A stretch of 64,000 nt of DNA from contig NZ_SHKL01000001.1 of NCBI RefSeq assembly GCF_004217185.1, positions 5,392,001 to 5,456,000 of the forward strand, written 5' to 3'. Below the pieces are notes generated by a model. It did no database searches. It saw only the letters and a program-made list of their open reading frames with translations, and was not told the origin of the DNA. The position numbers and the translations under genes are program-made. The DNA is from Pseudonocardia sediminis (GTDB taxonomy: Bacteria; Actinomycetota; Actinomycetes; Mycobacteriales; Pseudonocardiaceae). How positions within the stretch are numbered: position 1 is the stretch's first letter; each line of letters opens with the position of its first letter. Of the stretch, positions 4,426 to 55,822 are shown piece after piece.

Positions 4426-6060
4426 ATGCTGGGCCTCATGCAGGACCGGCCGCTCACGCTGCCCCACGTCTTCCACCGCGCCGAGCAGCTGTTCGGGCAC
4501 AAGAAGATCGTGACCGCCACCGCGACCGGTCAGGACACCATCTCCATCGCCGACTGGGCGGTCCGGGTACGCCGGCTGGCCACCGTGCTCGACACCCTCG
4601 GAATCGGTGCCGACGGCCGCGTCGGGACGTTCTGCTGGAACACCTCCCGCCACCTCGAGCTCTACCTGGCCGCACCGTGCACCGGCCGTGTCCTGCACAC
4701 GCTCAACATCCGGCTCTTCCCCGAGCAGCTCGTCTACATCGCCAACCACGCCGAGGACGAGGTCGTGTTCGTCGACCGGTCCCTGCTGCCGCTGCTGTGG
4801 CCGAACGTGGCGAAGTTCGAGACCGTCAAGCACTTCGTGGTGATCGACGACGGCGCGTCCGCCGAGATCCCGGACGACCCGCGGATCCACGACTACGAGG
4901 AGCTCCTCGCCGCGGCCGAGCCGTTCGCCGGGCGTTTCTCCGTCGATGACGAGAACCGCGCCGCGGCCATGTGCTACACGTCCGGGACCACCGGGAACCC
5001 GAAGGGCGTGGTCTACAGCCACCGCTCGGCTCTGCTGCACTCGCTGATCACCCTCGTCGCCGACGGGATCGCGCTGTCCGAGCACGACGTCGTGCTGCCG
5101 GTGGTGCCGATGTTCCACGCGAACGCCTGGGGACTGCCCTACGGCTGCCTGCTGGCCGGGGCGAGCGTGGTGTTCCCCGGCCCGAACATGACCCCGCAGG
5201 CGATCGTGGACCTGCTCGCCGAGCACAAGGTGACCGTCACCGGCGGCGTGCCGACGATCTGGATGGGCATGATCCCGCTCCTGGACGGGGCCGACCTCTC
5301 GTCGATCCGGTCCGTGCTCTGCGGCGGGTCGGCGGTGCCGAAGTCGCTGTCGGAGGCCTACCGCGAGAAGCTCGGCGTCCCGATGCTGCAGGCCTGGGGC
5401 ATGACCGAGACCTCTCCGATCGCGACCGTCTCCTCGATCAACTCGCACATGGACGACTGGTCCGACGACGCCAAGGCCGACGCCCGCGCGCGGCAGGGCT
5501 TCCCGGCGCCGCTGGTGGAGCTGCGGATCGCCGACCCCGACACCGGCGAAGAGCAGCCCTGGGACGACTCCGCGACCGGGGAGATCCAGGCCGCCGGACC
5601 GTGGATCGCGAAGGAGTACTACCGCGGCGAGGGCGGCGGCGAGCAGTACACCGCCGACGGCTGGCTGCGCACCGGCGACGTCGCCACGGTCGACCGTCAC
5701 GGCTCGTTCCGCCTGGTGGACCGCACCAAGGATCTGGTGAAGTCCGGCGGTGAGTGGATCAGCTCGGTGGAGCTGGAGAACGAGATCATGGCCCACCCCG
5801 CCGTCGCCGAGGCCGCGGTGATCGCGATCCCGCACGAGAAGTGGGTCGAGCGCCCGATCGCCTGCGTCGTGGTCAAGGACGGGCAGAGCGTCACCGCGCA
5901 GGAGATCCTGGACTTCCTCGAGTCCCGGGTGGCGAAGTGGTGGCTGCCCGACGCCGTCGAGTTCATCGACGAGGTGCCCAAGACCAGCGTCGGCAAGTTC
6001 TCCAAGAAGACCCTGCGCGAGAAGTTCGGCGGTTACCAGGTCGCCGCGCCCGACGCCTGA
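4426..6060 (+). CDS. Fatty acid--CoA ligase (FadD/AMP-binding family)
   Basis: 544-residue ANL-superfamily adenylating enzyme activating a carboxylic acid, probably medium- or long-chain fatty acid, as acyl-AMP and then acyl-CoA. The P-loop [12 protein letters not shown] is at residues 183-194, the GWLRTGD motif near 412-418, and the hinge [15 protein letters not shown] follows. The catalytic C-terminal lysine is K524 in [10 protein letters not shown] good Shine-Dalgarno GGAGGTG precedes the ATG. A monocistronic layout is suggested by a divergent upstream gene and a long perfect terminator just past the stop. Chain length cannot be read from the sequence. Confidence 0.92.
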
Positions 6061-50125: not shown

Positions 50126-51034
50126 ATGGCTCTGCCCAACGACACCGATCCGAAGCTCGCCGAGTACGCGCACCCGGAGCGCCTGGTCACCACCGCGTGG
50201 CTGGCCGACAATCTCGGCTCCGACGGCCTGGCCGTCGTCGAGTCCGACGAGGACGTGCTGCTCTACGAGACCGGCCACATCCCGGGCGCGGTCAAGGTCG
50301 ACTGGCACACCGAGCTCAACGACCCGGTGACCCGCGACTACGTCGACGGCGCCCGCTTCGCCCAGATCATGGGTGAGCGCGGCATCACCCGCGACACCAC
50401 GATCGTCGTCTACGGCGACAAGAACAACTGGTGGGCCGCCTACGCCCTCTGGGTGTTCTCCCTGTTCGGTCACGAGGATGTGCGCCTGCTCGACGGCGGC
50501 CGCGCCAAGTGGGCCGACGAGGGCCGCGAGATGACCACCGACGCCCCGAAGCCGGAGCAGGTCGACTACCCGGTGATCGAGCGTGACGACTCGAGGATCC
50601 GCGCGTTCAAGGACGACGTCGTCGCCCACCTCGGGCTCGTCTCCTCGGGGAAGGGGGCGATGGTCGACGTCCGCAGCCCGCAGGAGTACTCCGGCGAGAA
50701 GCTGCACATGCCCGACTACCCGCAGGAGGGCGCGGTCCGGGGCGGGCACATCCCGGGGGCGGCGAGCGTCCCGTGGGCCCGGGCCGCGGCCGAGGACGCG
50801 ACGTTCAAGTCCCGCGCCGACCTGGAGGCCATCTACCAGACCGAGCAGGGGCTGACGCCGTCCGACGACGTCGTCGCCTACTGCCGGATCGGCGAGCGCT
50901 CCAGCCACACCTGGTTCGTGCTGACGCACCTGCTCGGGTTCGACACCGTCCGCAACTACGACGGCAGCTGGACCGAGTGGGGCAACGCCGTGCGCGTCCC
51001 GATCGTGCAGGGGTCGGAGCGGGGCTCGGCGTGA
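50126..51034 (+). CDS. sseA: Thiosulfate/3-mercaptopyruvate sulfurtransferase (SseA)
   Basis: 302 residues with two rhodanese domains. The first (residues about 20-150) ends near [16 protein letters not shown]. The second carries the catalytic C253 in [14 protein letters not shown] after [15 protein letters not shown]. It transfers sulfur from thiosulfate or mercaptopyruvate to a thiophilic acceptor. ATG at 50126. Translationally coupled to sufE (GTGA), as for Rv3283-Rv3284. Confidence 0.93.
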
Positions 51035-51465
51035 CCCTCCCCCCTCAGCTCGCCGAACTCGTCGACGACTTCTCCGCGGTCGGCCCGAAGGACCGGCTGC
51101 AGATGCTGCTCGAGCTCTCCCGGGAGCTGCCCGACCTGCCCGAGCGCTTCGCCGACCGTGCGGACTCGATGGAGCAGGTGCACGAGTGCCAGTCGCCGCT
51201 GTTCCTGGCCGTCGAGGTCGAGGAGGGCGGCGAGCGCCCGGTGCACCTGTTCTTCTCCGCCCCGCCGGAGGCACCGACCACCCGCGGGTTCGCCTCGATC
51301 ATGGTCACCGGTCTGGACGGGGAGCCGGCACAGGCCGTGCTCGACGTGCCGGACGACTTCTACACCGACCTCGGGCTGGGCGAGGCGGTGAGCCCACTGC
51401 GGCTGCGTGGGATCTCCGCGATGCTCGCCCGGATCAAGAACCAGGTGCGCGCGGCGACCGCCTGA
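51031..51465 (+). CDS. SufE-family protein
   Basis: 144 residues. [20 protein letters not shown] and the sulfur-accepting C53 in [14 protein letters not shown] are typical of SufE. SufE normally accepts sulfur from the desulfurase SufS; with an upstream sulfurtransferase gene it may accept sulfur from SseA instead, an inference from coupling. The GTG at 51031 overlaps the sseA stop. A hairpin terminator follows. Confidence 0.92.
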
Positions 51466-51491: not shown

Positions 51492-51531
51492 CCCACGCCG
51501 AACCTCAAAGCTTGGTGAAGTTCGGCGTGGG
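51492..51531 (+). terminator. 12-bp hairpin after sseA-sufE
   Basis: CCCACGCCGAAC (51492-51503) pairs perfectly with GTTCGGCGTGGG (51520-51531), loop 16 nt, separating the sulfur genes from the downstream membrane-protein/MNIO module. Confidence 0.75.
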
Positions 51532-51593: not shown

Positions 51594-52544
51594 ATGGGTA
51601 CGAACCTCACCGGTGAGACCTGGGGGATCTCGGGCTCCACGTTCCTGTTCGTGTACGCGGTGATCGCCCTGGTGACCCTGGGCGCGATCCTCCGGGTACG
51701 ACACACGCTGCGGGCCGGGGTCCCGGCCGGCAGCGGTGAGCTCGACAGCCGGCCGGAAGACGTCGCCTACCTCAACGGCGGCCGGGACCTGGCCGTCTAC
51801 GCGGCGCTGAGCGCCATGCGCGTCGACGGCAGCATCACCACCGGCGACGGCGTCGCCGGCATGGTCCGGGCCGGGGGGCCCGTTCCGGCGCACGGCACCC
51901 GGCTGCAGCGCGCGATCCACGCCGCGACGACCCGGCTCACGCGCCGGCGTGGTCTCGTCCACGCCGCCGGGGTCGACTCCGAGCTCGACGAGATCCGGGA
52001 CCGGCTCGTCCGGACCGGGCTGCTGCTCTCCGAGGCCGCGCGCAACCGGCATCGCGGCACCGCGTTCTGGATGCTCGCGGTCCTGCTGCTCGGGCTCGTC
52101 CGCGTGATGGCCGGGACCGCGAACGGTCGCCCGGTCGGCTACATGATCCTGGCGATGCTGCTGGTGGGGGGCGTGTTCCTGGCGCTGCTGCTCCGGACGC
52201 CCGAGCGCACGTCGGCCGGCGACGTCGTCCTGGCCGAGCAGCGTGAGCGGCACGCGGCGCTCTCGCCGTCGATGCACCCGGACTGGGGCTCGGTCGGCGC
52301 GGGTGCGGCCGCACTGAGCGTCGGGGTGTTCGGCGTCGGCGCGCTCGTCGCCGCACAGCCGGCGTTCGCCGAGGAGCTCGAGGCCCAGCAGAGTGCCGCG
52401 CTCGGCGGCGGGGGCGGCTGGTCCGGCGGCACCTACGTCGGCAGTGGTGACTCCGGCGGCGGCTTCTTCGGAGGCGGCGGCGGGGGTGGCTGCGGCGGCG
52501 GGGGTGGCGGCTGCGGCGGTGGAGGCGGGGGCTGCGGCGGCTGA
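51594..52544 (+). CDS. TIGR04222-domain membrane protein with a Gly6-Cys repeat tail
   Basis: 316 residues. Helix 1 (FLFVYAVIALVTLGAILRV) is followed by a cytoplasmic-like helical domain (DVAYLNGGRDLAVYAALSAM ... RGLVHAAGVDSELDEIRDRL, the TIGR04222 region) and helices WMLAVLLLGLVRVM, YMILAMLLVGGVFLALLL and AAALSVGVFGVGALVAAQ. The last about 45 residues are glycine, ending in three cysteines C300, C307, C314, each separated by six glycines; no other Cys occurs in the protein. The tail recalls a RiPP core. Directly downstream are an MNIO-type enzyme and its partner, so it is the probable substrate. ATG at 51594 after AGGGGGTGG. Confidence 0.85.
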   Translation: MGTNLTGETWGISGSTFLFVYAVIALVTLGAILRVRHTLRAGVPAGSGELDSRPEDVAYLNGGRDLAVYAALSAMRVDGSITTGDGVAGMVRAGGPVPAHGTRLQRAIHAATTRLTRRRGLVHAAGVDSELDEIRDRLVRTGLLLSEAARNRHRGTAFWMLAVLLLGLVRVMAGTANGRPVGYMILAMLLVGGVFLALLLRTPERTSAGDVVLAEQRERHAALSPSMHPDWGSVGAGAAALSVGVFGVGALVAAQPAFAEELEAQQSAALGGGGGWSGGTYVGSGDSGGGFFGGGGGGGCGGGGGGCGGGGGGCGG

Positions 52545-52565
52545 GCCGCGGCCTCGACGAGGGGT

Positions 52566-52612
52566 CCGCTCCCGCAGCTCCGCCACCGGGGGGTGTGGAG
52601 TTGCGGGAGCGG
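52566..52612 (+). terminator. 16-bp hairpin between candidate substrate and MNIO genes
   Basis: CCGCTCCCGCAGCTCC (52566-52581) pairs with GGAGTTGCGGGAGCGG (52597-52612), 15 Watson-Crick pairs plus one G-U, loop 15 nt. A partial terminator here would make much more of the upstream protein than of the enzyme. Confidence 0.7.
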
Positions 52613-52643
52613 TGTCGTCGCCACCATCGGAAGGGGACCGACG

Positions 52644-53495
52644 ATGACGAAGGATCCGGAGGGCACCGGCGTCGGCTGGCGTCCGGAGATCGCGTCCGTC
52701 CTGGCCGGGACGACCGGGCTGGGGTTCTGCGAGGTCATCGCCGAATCCCTGAACCCTGGTGACGTGCCGGTCCCGCTGCGGTCGCTGGCCGCGGGCGGGA
52801 CGACGGTGATCCCGCACGGCGTTCGGCTGTCGCTCGGCGGCACCGAGCCCGTCGACGCGGGGCGGGTGACACACCTGGCCGCCTGCGCCGAGGCACTCGA
52901 CGCGCCGCTGGTCAGCGAGCACGTGTCGTTCGTCCGGGCCGGCGGACGCGAGGCCGGGCACCTGCTGCCGCTGCCCCGCACCCGCGAGGCCCTGGACGTG
53001 CTGGCCGCGAACATCGCACGCACCCGGACCGAGCTCGACGTCCCGCTGGCCGTGGAACCGATCGCGGCGCTGTTCGACTGGCCCGACGACGAGTTCGGCG
53101 AGCCCGAGTTCCTCACCCGGCTGCTCGACCGCACCGGCGCGCTGCTGCTGCTCGACGTCGCGAACATCCACGCCAACACGCTCAACCGCGGCCAGGACGC
53201 CCGCGCGGTGCTCGACGCGATGCCGCTGGACCGGGTCGCCTACTGCCACGTCGCGGGCGGAGCCGTCCACGACGGGCTCTACCACGACACGCACACCGAC
53301 GCGCTGCCCGGACCGGTGCTCGACCTGCTGGGGCACCTGGTGGACCGGTGCCCGTCCGTGCCGCCGGTGATGCTCGAACGCGACGGCCGCTACCCGCCGG
53401 CCACCGAGCTGCGCGCCGAGCTGGCCGCGATCGCCGCCGTCACGGGAACGCCGGCCCCGACCGGGGACGGGCACACCGCCGGGCTCGTCGGATGA
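52644..53495 (+). CDS. DUF692/MNIO-family enzyme (multinuclear iron oxygenase type)
   Basis: 283-residue TIM-barrel protein. The conserved ligand positions of the MNIO family can be seen: H58 (IPHGVRLSLGG), H93 (SEHVSF), E138 (AVEPIAALF), D171 and N174 (LLDVANIHAN), H202 (YCHVAGG), H217/D219 (HDTHTD) and E245 (MLERDGRY). Known members (MbnB, TglH) oxidatively modify cysteines or backbone of ribosomal peptides. The neighbouring Gly/Cys-tailed protein is the obvious substrate. ATG at 52644; ATGA overlap with the partner gene. Confidence 0.9.
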   Translation: MTKDPEGTGVGWRPEIASVLAGTTGLGFCEVIAESLNPGDVPVPLRSLAAGGTTVIPHGVRLSLGGTEPVDAGRVTHLAACAEALDAPLVSEHVSFVRAGGREAGHLLPLPRTREALDVLAANIARTRTELDVPLAVEPIAALFDWPDDEFGEPEFLTRLLDRTGALLLLDVANIHANTLNRGQDARAVLDAMPLDRVAYCHVAGGAVHDGLYHDTHTDALPGPVLDLLGHLVDRCPSVPPVMLERDGRYPPATELRAELAAIAAVTGTPAPTGDGHTAGLVG

Positions 53496-53896
53496 GCGGG
53501 GACCTCGCGGCCCGTCAGGCGGCGCTGGTCGAGGCGCTCGTCGCCGGCGGGCCCGACCCGATCGGGTTCGATCCGGAGCGCCTCGCCGCCACCCGGCGGG
53601 CGCTGCTGCGCAAGCGCGCCGGGCAGGCCGCCGCCGCGTGGCCACTGCTCGCGGCCGCCCTCGGCCCCGACTGGACACCGACGTTCGCCGCCCGGTTCGA
53701 CGCCGTCGCGCCCACCGACGCCCTGCGCGAGGGCTGGGACCTGGCCCGCGAGCTGCGGTCGGACGCCCGGTTCACCCCCGGCGCGGCACGGGAGCTCGCC
53801 GCCCGGGAGGCCGCGCTGCGCTACGACGGCGTGTCCGCGCCCCGCCGCCGCTCCCGCGCGGACGCCGCCCTGCGGCACCTTCTGAAACGATCATGA
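53492..53896 (+). CDS. Small helical partner of the MNIO enzyme
   Basis: 134 residues, almost entirely alpha-helical and Ala/Arg-rich: LAARQAALVEALVAGG, RLAATRRALLRKRAGQAAAA, FAARFDAVAPTDALREGWDL and a basic end. There are no cysteines or signal peptide. MNIO enzymes work with small partner proteins that bind the peptide substrate; size, position and the ATGA overlap with the enzyme fit this, though the sequence itself shows no recognised motif. Ends the three-gene module. Confidence 0.8.
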   Translation: MSGDLAARQAALVEALVAGGPDPIGFDPERLAATRRALLRKRAGQAAAAWPLLAAALGPDWTPTFAARFDAVAPTDALREGWDLARELRSDARFTPGAARELAAREAALRYDGVSAPRRRSRADAALRHLLKRS

Positions 53897-54046: not shown

Positions 54047-55822
54047 GTGCCCGCACTGCGCAAAGTGCTCGTCGCCAACCGTGGAGAGATCGCCGTCCGG
54101 GTGATCCGTGCTGCCAAGGACGCGGGCCTCGCCAGTGTCGCGGTCTACGCCGACCCGGACCGGGACGCGATGTTCGTCCGCGTCGCCGACGAGGCGTTCG
54201 CCCTGGGCGGTTCCACCGCGGCCGAGTCGTACCTGGACTTCGACAAGGTGATCGGCGCCGCGAAGCAGGCCGGGGCCGACTCCATCCACCCCGGCTACGG
54301 CTTCCTGTCCGAGAACGCCGACTTCGCCCAGGCCGTGATCGACGCCGGGATCACCTGGATCGGCCCGTCGCCGCAGTCCATCCGCGACCTCGGCGACAAG
54401 GTCACCGCCCGGCACATCGCCACCCGCGCCGGCGCCCCGCTCGTCCCGGGCACGAACGACCCGGTCGCCAACGCGGACGAGGTGATCGCCTTCGCGAAGG
54501 AGTACGGCCTCCCGGTCGCGATCAAGGCCGCGTTCGGTGGTGGTGGGCGCGGCATGAAGGTCGCGCGCGAGGAGAAGGACATCGCCGAGCTCTACGAGTC
54601 GGCCGTCCGCGAGGCCACCGCGGCGTTCGGCCGCGGCGAGTGCTTCGTCGAGCGCTACCTGGACCGCCCGCGCCACGTCGAGACGCAGGTCCTGGCCGAC
54701 CAGCACGGCAACGTGATCGTCGTCGGCACCCGCGACTGCTCGCTGCAGCGCCGCTTCCAGAAGCTCGTCGAGGAGGCGCCCGCACCGTTCCTGAGCGAGG
54801 AGCAGACACAGACGCTCTACGACGCGTCCAAGGCGATCTGCAAGGAGGCCGGCTACTACGGCGCCGGCACCGTCGAGTTCCTCGTCGGCGAGGACGGGAT
54901 GATCACCTTCCTGGAGGTGAACACCCGCCTGCAGGTCGAGCACCCCGTCTCCGAGGAGACCACCGGGCTCGACCTGGTGCGCCAGCAGTTCCTGATCGCC
55001 GAGGGCAAGGAGCTCCAGATCGACGGCGACCCGACGCCGGTCGGGCACGCGATCGAGTTCCGGATCAACGGTGAGGACGCCGGCCGGAACTTCCTCCCGG
55101 CGCCGGGCACCGTGTCCAAGATCTGGTACCCGGCCGGGCCGGGTGTCCGGATGGACGCCGGCGTCGAGGACGGCTCGGTGATCGGCGGGCAGTTCGACTC
55201 GCTGCTGGCCAAGCTGATCGTTCGCGGCGCCACCCGTCAGCAGGCGATCGAGCGCGCCCGTCGTGCGCTCGACGAGTTCAAGGTCGAGGGCATGGCGACG
55301 GTGCTGGAGTTCCACCGCCTCGTCGTCTCCGACCCGGCGTTCTCCTCGGAGTCGGCCGAGGACTTCACCGTCCACACCCGCTGGATCGAGACCGAGTGGA
55401 ACAACACCGTCCCGCCGTTCGAGGGTGGCGAGGGTGCCGAGGAGGAGTCCTCGGACCGTCAGACCGTCGTGGTCGAGGTCGGTGGACGACGCCTGGAGGT
55501 GTCGCTGCCCGGGGACCTCGCCCTCGGCGGGGGCGGCGGCAACGGCGGCGCGGCGAAGGCGGCCCCGCGCAAGCGCGGCGGCAAGGGCGGCGGCGCGAAG
55601 GCCTCCGGCGACGCCGTCACCGCCCCGATGCAGGGCACCATCATCAAGGTCGCGGTCTCCGACGGCGACACCGTCTCCGCGGGCGACCTGATCGTCGTCC
55701 TGGAGGCGATGAAGATGGAGAACCCGGTCACCGCGACCAAGGACGGCACCGTCACCGGCCTGAACGCCGAGTCCGGTGCCTCGATCTCGCAGGGCACCGT
55801 GATCTGCGAGATCAAGGACTGA
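54047..55822 (+). CDS. accA3: Acyl-CoA carboxylase alpha subunit (biotin carboxylase-carrier)
   Basis: 591 residues. The biotin carboxylase domain begins [19 protein letters not shown], with the ATP-grasp loop [13 protein letters not shown] near residue 162 and [17 protein letters not shown] Gly/Lys-rich linker precedes the C-terminal biotinyl domain, whose EAMKMENPV carries the biotinylated K556. It carboxylates its own biotin using ATP and bicarbonate and feeds AccD subunits such as AccD5 encoded at 43738. GTG at 54047. Modified by BirA. Confidence 0.96.

Follow-up and report, generated by a model that had tools for sequence, protein, structure and literature searches.

Why should a bacterial membrane protein end in a glycine tail with three evenly spaced cysteines, and why should its gene stand directly before that of an iron enzyme of the MNIO type? 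This question is raised by a locus of Pseudonocardia sediminis (assembly GCF_004217185.1, contig NZ_SHKL01000001.1), found within a stretch of 64,000 nucleotides (positions 5,392,001 to 5,456,000 of the forward strand) that was analysed as a whole and is called the window here; all positions below are counted from its first letter. Three consecutive forward-strand genes between sufE and accA3 encode, in this order, a membrane protein of the TIGR04222 family, an MNIO and a helical partner of 134 aa. With a probability of about 0.72, we read this trio as a membrane-anchored MNIO module that would oxidize the tail cysteines, likely to 5-thiooxazoles, and so provide the cell with a membrane-fixed soft-metal or redox tail. 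The original prediction, made from the bare sequence, had named the tail cysteines as the MNIO substrate, and they are still the best candidate, as co-variation across genomes and a change of membrane anchor point to MNIO, partner and tail forming one module.

The three genes of the module

The first gene (51594..52544, + strand) encodes a protein of 316 aa, the predicted modified protein, which scores 138.8 bits against the NCBIfam model TIGR04222 (curated cut-off 43). Its only cysteines, C300, C307 and C314, lie within the last 17 residues, in a glycine-rich tail (residues 274-316, 52413..52541) that was modelled with low confidence. Their TGC codons are located at 52491, 52512 and 52533, with exactly six glycines between successive cysteines, and the tail DNA is a tandem repeat of 21- or 18-base units. 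A Pfam scan of this protein matched no family and recovered no DUF2282, Buf or EGKCG-type precursor, and a PHROGs search returned nothing for either this protein or the partner.

The second gene (52644..53495, +) encodes an MNIO of 283 aa (DUF692; PF05114, 251.2 bits against a cut-off of 25). Residues H58, H93, E138, D171, N174, H202, D215, H217 and E245 are the counterparts of all nine iron-ligand positions of TglH, as given in the available text of PMC10880893; H58 falls outside the printed TglH alignment and was paired through the 3bww alignment only. The nearest NCBIfam models are BufB (169.2 bits, cut-off 310) and HvfB (148.1 bits, cut-off 360), both below cut-off. Among the best 80 of 102 relatives, the closest named ones are Pseudonocardia proteins with 85% and 77% identity.

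The third gene (53492..53896, +) overlaps the MNIO stop codon by ATGA and encodes the partner, a putative DUF2063-like protein, tentatively likened to NGO1945 and TglI, of the kind termed PME-type 2. Its AlphaFold2 model contains six helices and no strands (mean pLDDT 89.7), which indicates that an RRE domain is lacking. A Pfam scan of the window partner at E<=1 gave no match, DUF2063 included, and at the same threshold PF09836 (DUF2063) matched 9 of 59 partner relatives, weakly (best 5.7e-4). A profile of the partner alignment compared with PDB sequences gave nothing significant. Thus the trio itself, with its coordinates, families, ATGA coupling and helical partner, is as the original prediction described it, and so are the filled ligand positions, the confinement of all three cysteines to the tail and the placement between sufE and accA3.

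The partner is a regular companion of the enzyme. A profile derived from the window protein recovers it in 87 of 93 MNIO loci, some of which overlap at the same genome place (e.g. L070 and L115); five of the six misses are cut by the end of the locus, and in the sixth (G237) the MNIO scores low with the window-type profile. It is likewise present in 79 of the 80 named loci, those of the best 80 of 102 relatives. In 23 genomes MNIO and partner form a single open frame (24 same-frame cases, the broken gene of G344 not being counted as a fusion), and further locus reading added six more. These natural fusions fit the finding that an artificial HvfB-HvfC fusion is active (PMC13419390, available text).

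Co-variation of tail cysteines and MNIO genes

The original prediction proposed to ask whether trio, tail cysteines and MNIO co-vary across genomes, and an association was found. In a class-wide sample, TIGR04222 proteins scored over the cut-off in 74 of 296 genomes and MNIO was found in 66 of 296 drawn likewise. Tails were readable in 73 of the 74 (G037, with an unreadable tail, was left out), and open reading frames running off a locus end were excluded. A cysteine tail is encoded in 39 of 53 MNIO-positive genomes as against 1 of 20 MNIO-negative ones (p 7.8e-8), and in the one MNIO-negative genome with such a tail (G079) a truncated MNIO is cut by the contig end (L136). When only glycine/serine-rich tails are considered, 111 of 112 tails in MNIO genomes contain at least two [GS]C[GS] motifs compared with 3 of 10 in genomes lacking MNIO (p 1.4e-8); counted by genome, a glycine/serine-rich TIGR04222 tail contains cysteine in 75 of 75 genomes with MNIO and in 2 of 9 without. 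For these counts G079 was set as MNIO-positive, and G232 as lacking MNIO, its only one being of the bufferin type (366 bits to BufB, cut-off 310) and its glycine tail cysteine-free. The cysteine-free glycine tails of MNIO-free genomes mostly have aspartate instead (G223, G283, G019, G102 and G313, not G197).

A family-level sample of 150 genomes, with TIGR04222 in 82 and MNIO in 79, gave a similar picture: MNIO occurs in 77 of the 82 TIGR04222 genomes (the broken gene of G344 included) and in 2 of the 68 others, the tails having been read for part of the 82. Starting from the enzyme, a cysteine-tailed TIGR04222 protein is encoded in 75 of the 80 named MNIO loci, two of which (L253 and L254) look identical. 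In two of the five misses the contig begins with the MNIO, L317 encodes a cysteine tail in a frame that the profile does not match, and L274 and L325 have TIGR04222 frames without a cysteine tail.

A second kind of evidence comes from a change of anchor. In six loci from three genera (G122, G276 and G292; G111 and G198; G078), a short protein with one predicted membrane helix and a Cys/Gly tail is encoded beside MNIO and partner, between the two in five loci and just after the partner in G078. None of the six proteins matches the TIGR04222 profile; the one in L222, of 119 aa, is also without a Pfam match. No other single observation points as strongly to the tail as the target of the enzyme.

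Taken together, these sequence comparisons make it very probable that the cysteines of the TIGR04222 tail are altered by the iron enzyme with the aid of its helper. The cytosolic MNIO would dock on the DUF2063-like partner, and the pair would oxidize the cysteines of the [G/S]-Cys-[G/S] motifs in succession, either at the membrane or before the protein reaches it. The nearest characterized relatives are HvfB and the captophorin enzymes, whose products are copper-binding 5-thiooxazoles (PMC12668002 and PMC13419390, available text). By analogy, our likeliest guess for the product is 5-thiooxazole, at about -4 Da per cysteine, the mass change described for HvfB in the available text of PMC13419390. 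The modified tail would bind soft metals (or serve in redox reactions) and stay fixed to the membrane, probably at its cytoplasmic face, with no peptide released.

TIGR04222 proteins are related to DUF2207

Weak matches to PF20990 (DUF2207) occur in 16 of 52 TIGR04222 proteins, with an E of 0.011 at best, while the runner-up family is matched by four; the window protein has no match at the Pfam cut-off for PF20990, so that the kinship is seen through profile comparison alone. A profile-profile comparison of TIGR04222 with 25 DUF2207 domains gave a probability of 92% (E 5.9e-7, 172 columns), and with 19 longer DUF2207 sequences an E of 4.3e-7 over 175 columns. The profiles thus indicate that TIGR04222 is homologous to the C-terminal domain of DUF2207. 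All 25 complete DUF2207 ends have 0-1 cysteines after the domain, 19 of the 25 are glycine-rich, and they end mostly in GSW or GGW. Since these ends are glycine-rich and nearly devoid of cysteine, an old glycine tail has likely gained its cysteines later. We tentatively extend this to a fixed multi-heterocycle metal or redox tail at the inner membrane face, in which the tail would be the unit of selection, borne on either a DUF2207-derived or a one-helix anchor; this extended form is somewhat less probable than its opposite.

Side of the membrane

The original prediction offered metal binding at the cell surface as one guess. In 52 sequences, the mean number of lysines and arginines is 3.3, 3.2 and 4.8 in the stretches taken as cytoplasmic versus 0.6 and 0.8 elsewhere, which predicts an external N-terminus and an internal domain. 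The side of the tail then depends on a fourth, weaker segment that precedes it. Should this segment be a membrane helix, as its hydropathy of 1.98 in the window protein would allow, the tail would lie outside, in line with the published topology (a predicted periplasmic tail in the available text of PMC12452194), and this counts against the cytoplasmic tail of our proposal. A modified tail acting as an extracytoplasmic metal buffer, in the manner of bufferins, is the best of the alternatives, though we consider it unlikely. The hydropathy of segment 4 reaches 1.6 or more in 19 of the 52 sequences and stays below 1.6 in 33. An uncharged run of at least 18 residues in 31 of 52 also speaks for an external tail; run length was set aside as a test, being non-discriminating, as helix 2 itself fails it. 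Against an external tail, the stretch of DUF2207 proteins that looks similar reads like YLPYAIVFGEAERWAKVF, a charged helix with charges in mid-stretch (matched by eye, as the DUF2207 profile alignment stops before this place). The six one-helix proteins have 0-1 lysines or arginines before the helix and 5-7 after it, with an arginine-rich flank on the tail side, which predicts a cytoplasmic tail.

The charge bias therefore favors the cytoplasm, clearly in the one-helix proteins and ambiguously in TIGR04222, and the balance tips modestly toward a cytoplasmic tail. A location of the tail at the cell surface is doubtful.

Points against a modified tail

Several observations weigh against the modification proposed here. 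The loci read are not a random set, as MNIO clusters and MNIO-free cases were given priority, and a single genome may contribute several tails. Over a tree built from 177 TIGR04222 domains, MNIO presence switches 5 times and the cysteine-tail state 19 times; with so few MNIO changes, most of the association could be due to a few old events, and an independent-pairs test of cysteine tail versus MNIO on this tree had no power. The counts are strong, the independent events are few, and the co-variation is mostly at the level of clades. Fold searches with the TIGR04222 model and with the partner gave no significant match. Coding bias was used to pick 14 neighbor proteins in 12 loci, and none of them is metal-related.

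Other exceptions lend themselves to a different explanation, namely direct metal binding or disulfide formation by an unmodified Cys-Gly tail, the MNIO being just a neighbor with another substrate. Fourteen of the 53 MNIO-positive genomes of the class sample lack a cysteine tail: 12 of the large genus g24, G181, in which the MNIO adjoins a TIGR04222 protein without tail cysteines, and G232. In nine of these 12, MNIO and partner were seen to be fused in one gene, and the gap from MNIO to the tailless TIGR04222 gene, read in three, holds another protein. Conversely, G398 (three cysteines) and the draft genome G390 encode cysteine tails while no MNIO was found genome-wide. Two genomes of the same genus as the window illustrate natural loss: in G344 the MNIO is split over three frames and one tail cysteine is kept; in G398 the TIGR04222 gene lies directly before accA3, neither MNIO nor partner has a match in the locus, and all three cysteines are kept. 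These two losses point in opposite directions. Since tail and MNIO co-occur over many genera and a similar tail is found on another anchor beside the same type of MNIO and partner, we regard an unmodified tail as improbable.

The original prediction named homologous tails occurring widely with no MNIO nearby as a finding that would refute it. Taken literally, such tails exist in at least nine genomes (G100, G111, G198, G249, G302, G303, G322, G329 and G362); all nine have an MNIO elsewhere.

Some further arrangements were seen in these loci. In four loci of g24 (L246, L247, L248 and L218), the MNIO-partner fusion adjoins another protein, assigned by Pfam to DUF4142 in L246, the sole one tested; three of the four have a tailless TIGR04222, and an MNIO substrate is not apparent. 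Tandem arrays of 3-4 TIGR04222 paralogues, some of them with cysteine tails, lie upstream of a single MNIO in L122, L105, L106 and L123. In L240 (G038:C1:5641000-5649000, open reading frame 4520-5539, +), a TIGR04222 cysteine stretch runs into a partner-like piece (E 0.01) with no MNIO between the two, possibly what a deletion left of the module.

Composition of the tail

We surveyed 122 cysteine tails from 83 genomes, counting composition from just before the first tail cysteine onward and excluding cysteine. The common motif is [GS]C[GS], with serine at the position before cysteine in 49% (35% overall) and glycine after it in 76% (58% overall). The spacing of cysteines is mostly 2-10 residues with a mode of 5, so the exact six-glycine spacing, put forward as a perfect pattern, is not conserved in the family, and its regularity in the window is due to the local repeat. 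CGG forms the exact C-terminal end in 58 of the 122 tails.

A motif QPAFAEE (residues 255-261, 52356-52376) precedes the window tail and resembles a signal-peptidase site. A tail cleaved off as a free bacteriocin-like ribosomally synthesized and post-translationally modified peptide would recall a cluster described in 2016 for ant-associated Pseudonocardia (PMC5183585): alongside several nucleases, its available text assigns a sulfur transferase, an accessory protein and a TIGR04222 peptide to a bacteriocin cluster, and the set resembles the window locus with sseA and sufE. The neighbors scanned include no protease or exporter and most of the other genera aligned lack PAFAEE, and we therefore consider release of the tail very improbable. 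That the tail has no function and arose by chance as low-complexity sequence from a CGG-rich repeat, through changes of GGC to TGC, as the GC-rich tandem repeat of the window might suggest, is hardly credible, because residues other than glycine and serine make up only ~7% of the 122 tails (alanine 2%, aspartate 1.4%), cysteine clusters are absent from 7 of 10 MNIO-free glycine tails and from the DUF2207 tails read, and the recurrence of cysteine tails over 83 genomes and in most named MNIO loci goes beyond chance.

Genomic neighborhood

The trio is flanked by sufE on its 5' side (51034..51465, +; PF02657, 106 bits) and accA3 on its 3' side (54047..55822, +), both identified by a profile scan of the window and by synteny. 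In G297, a related genome of another genus in which neither TIGR04222 nor MNIO was found, sufE and accA3 lie ~40 bp apart. In the loci read, sufE adjoins the module in Pseudonocardia and not in other genera; among the 80 named loci, linkage to sufE is found in Pseudonocardia and one metagenome-assembled genome of Pseudonocardiales only, the latter with the module between sufE and accA3. A search for the SufE protein in 22 related genomes gave 2, and outside Pseudonocardia the evidence for the order sufE-accA3 is therefore limited to G297 and that Pseudonocardiales genome.

Two inverted repeats with 16-nt arms accompany the trio, both on the + strand. The first (51492..51531, loop of 8 nt) lies in the gap between sufE and the TIGR04222 gene and is a possible transcript end or processing hairpin; a terminator scan found no T run on its 3' side. 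The second (52566..52612), situated downstream of the TIGR04222 stop and ahead of the MNIO start, is shared with few near relatives, being strong in 3 of 18 Pseudonocardia loci scanned (L249, L250 and L319); the L319 counterpart differs in sequence.

Comparison with known systems

A full-text search for TIGR04222 among the papers available returned PMC12452194 and PMC5183585 only. According to the available text of PMC12452194 (Antoine 2025), TIGR04222 proteins occur with MNIOs in Actinomycetota, have Ser/Gly tails with cysteines and are accompanied by PME-type 2 partners, and modification of a subset of these proteins is proposed there. The trio as such is therefore not new: the three components, their order, the Ser/Gly cysteine tail, the apparent lack of a Sec-type precursor and the PME-type 2 partner all agree with the window. 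The published account differs in giving PME-type 2 proteins for at least 10% of TIGR04222-MNIO clusters, whereas the partner accompanies nearly all MNIO loci here and is often fused, and in placing the tail in the periplasm, which is doubtful here. One-helix carriers and partner-MNIO fusions were not met in the available part of that paper, nor does DUF2207 appear in it. DUF2207 itself resembles TIGR04222 in its profile match and glycine-rich C-terminal tail and differs from the module in that its tails have no cysteine clusters.

If the proposed modification is correct, a membrane-protein tail would extend the MNIO reaction, the characterized products of which in the available text of the studies cited are peptides, to a lasting modification of proteins in common soil actinomycetes; MNIO products might then include a class that stays part of a protein permanently and is not secreted as peptides. 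A modified tail would also offer an entry into TIGR04222 and DUF2207, both of them poorly understood families of membrane proteins. For direct tests of the chemistry, compact systems exist in the one-helix carrier of 119 residues and in the natural fusions of MNIO and partner.

Among characterized systems, bufferins and captophorins (BufABC, HvfABC and FonABC; PMC12668002 and PMC13419390, available text) likewise combine an MNIO and a partner acting on repeated Cys-Gly sites, and BufB and HvfB are the models nearest to the window enzyme, albeit below cut-off. Their precursors have a Sec signal peptide, whereas the window encodes a multi-helix membrane protein, and their partner is of the DUF2063-RRE kind (PME-type 1), whereas the window partner consists of helices only. 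TglHI and MbnBC share with the window the iron-ligand positions and the pairing of an enzyme with a dedicated helper, MbnC being the top, non-significant fold match of the partner (E 2.5); they differ in their substrates, and their sequence similarity to the window MNIO is partial.

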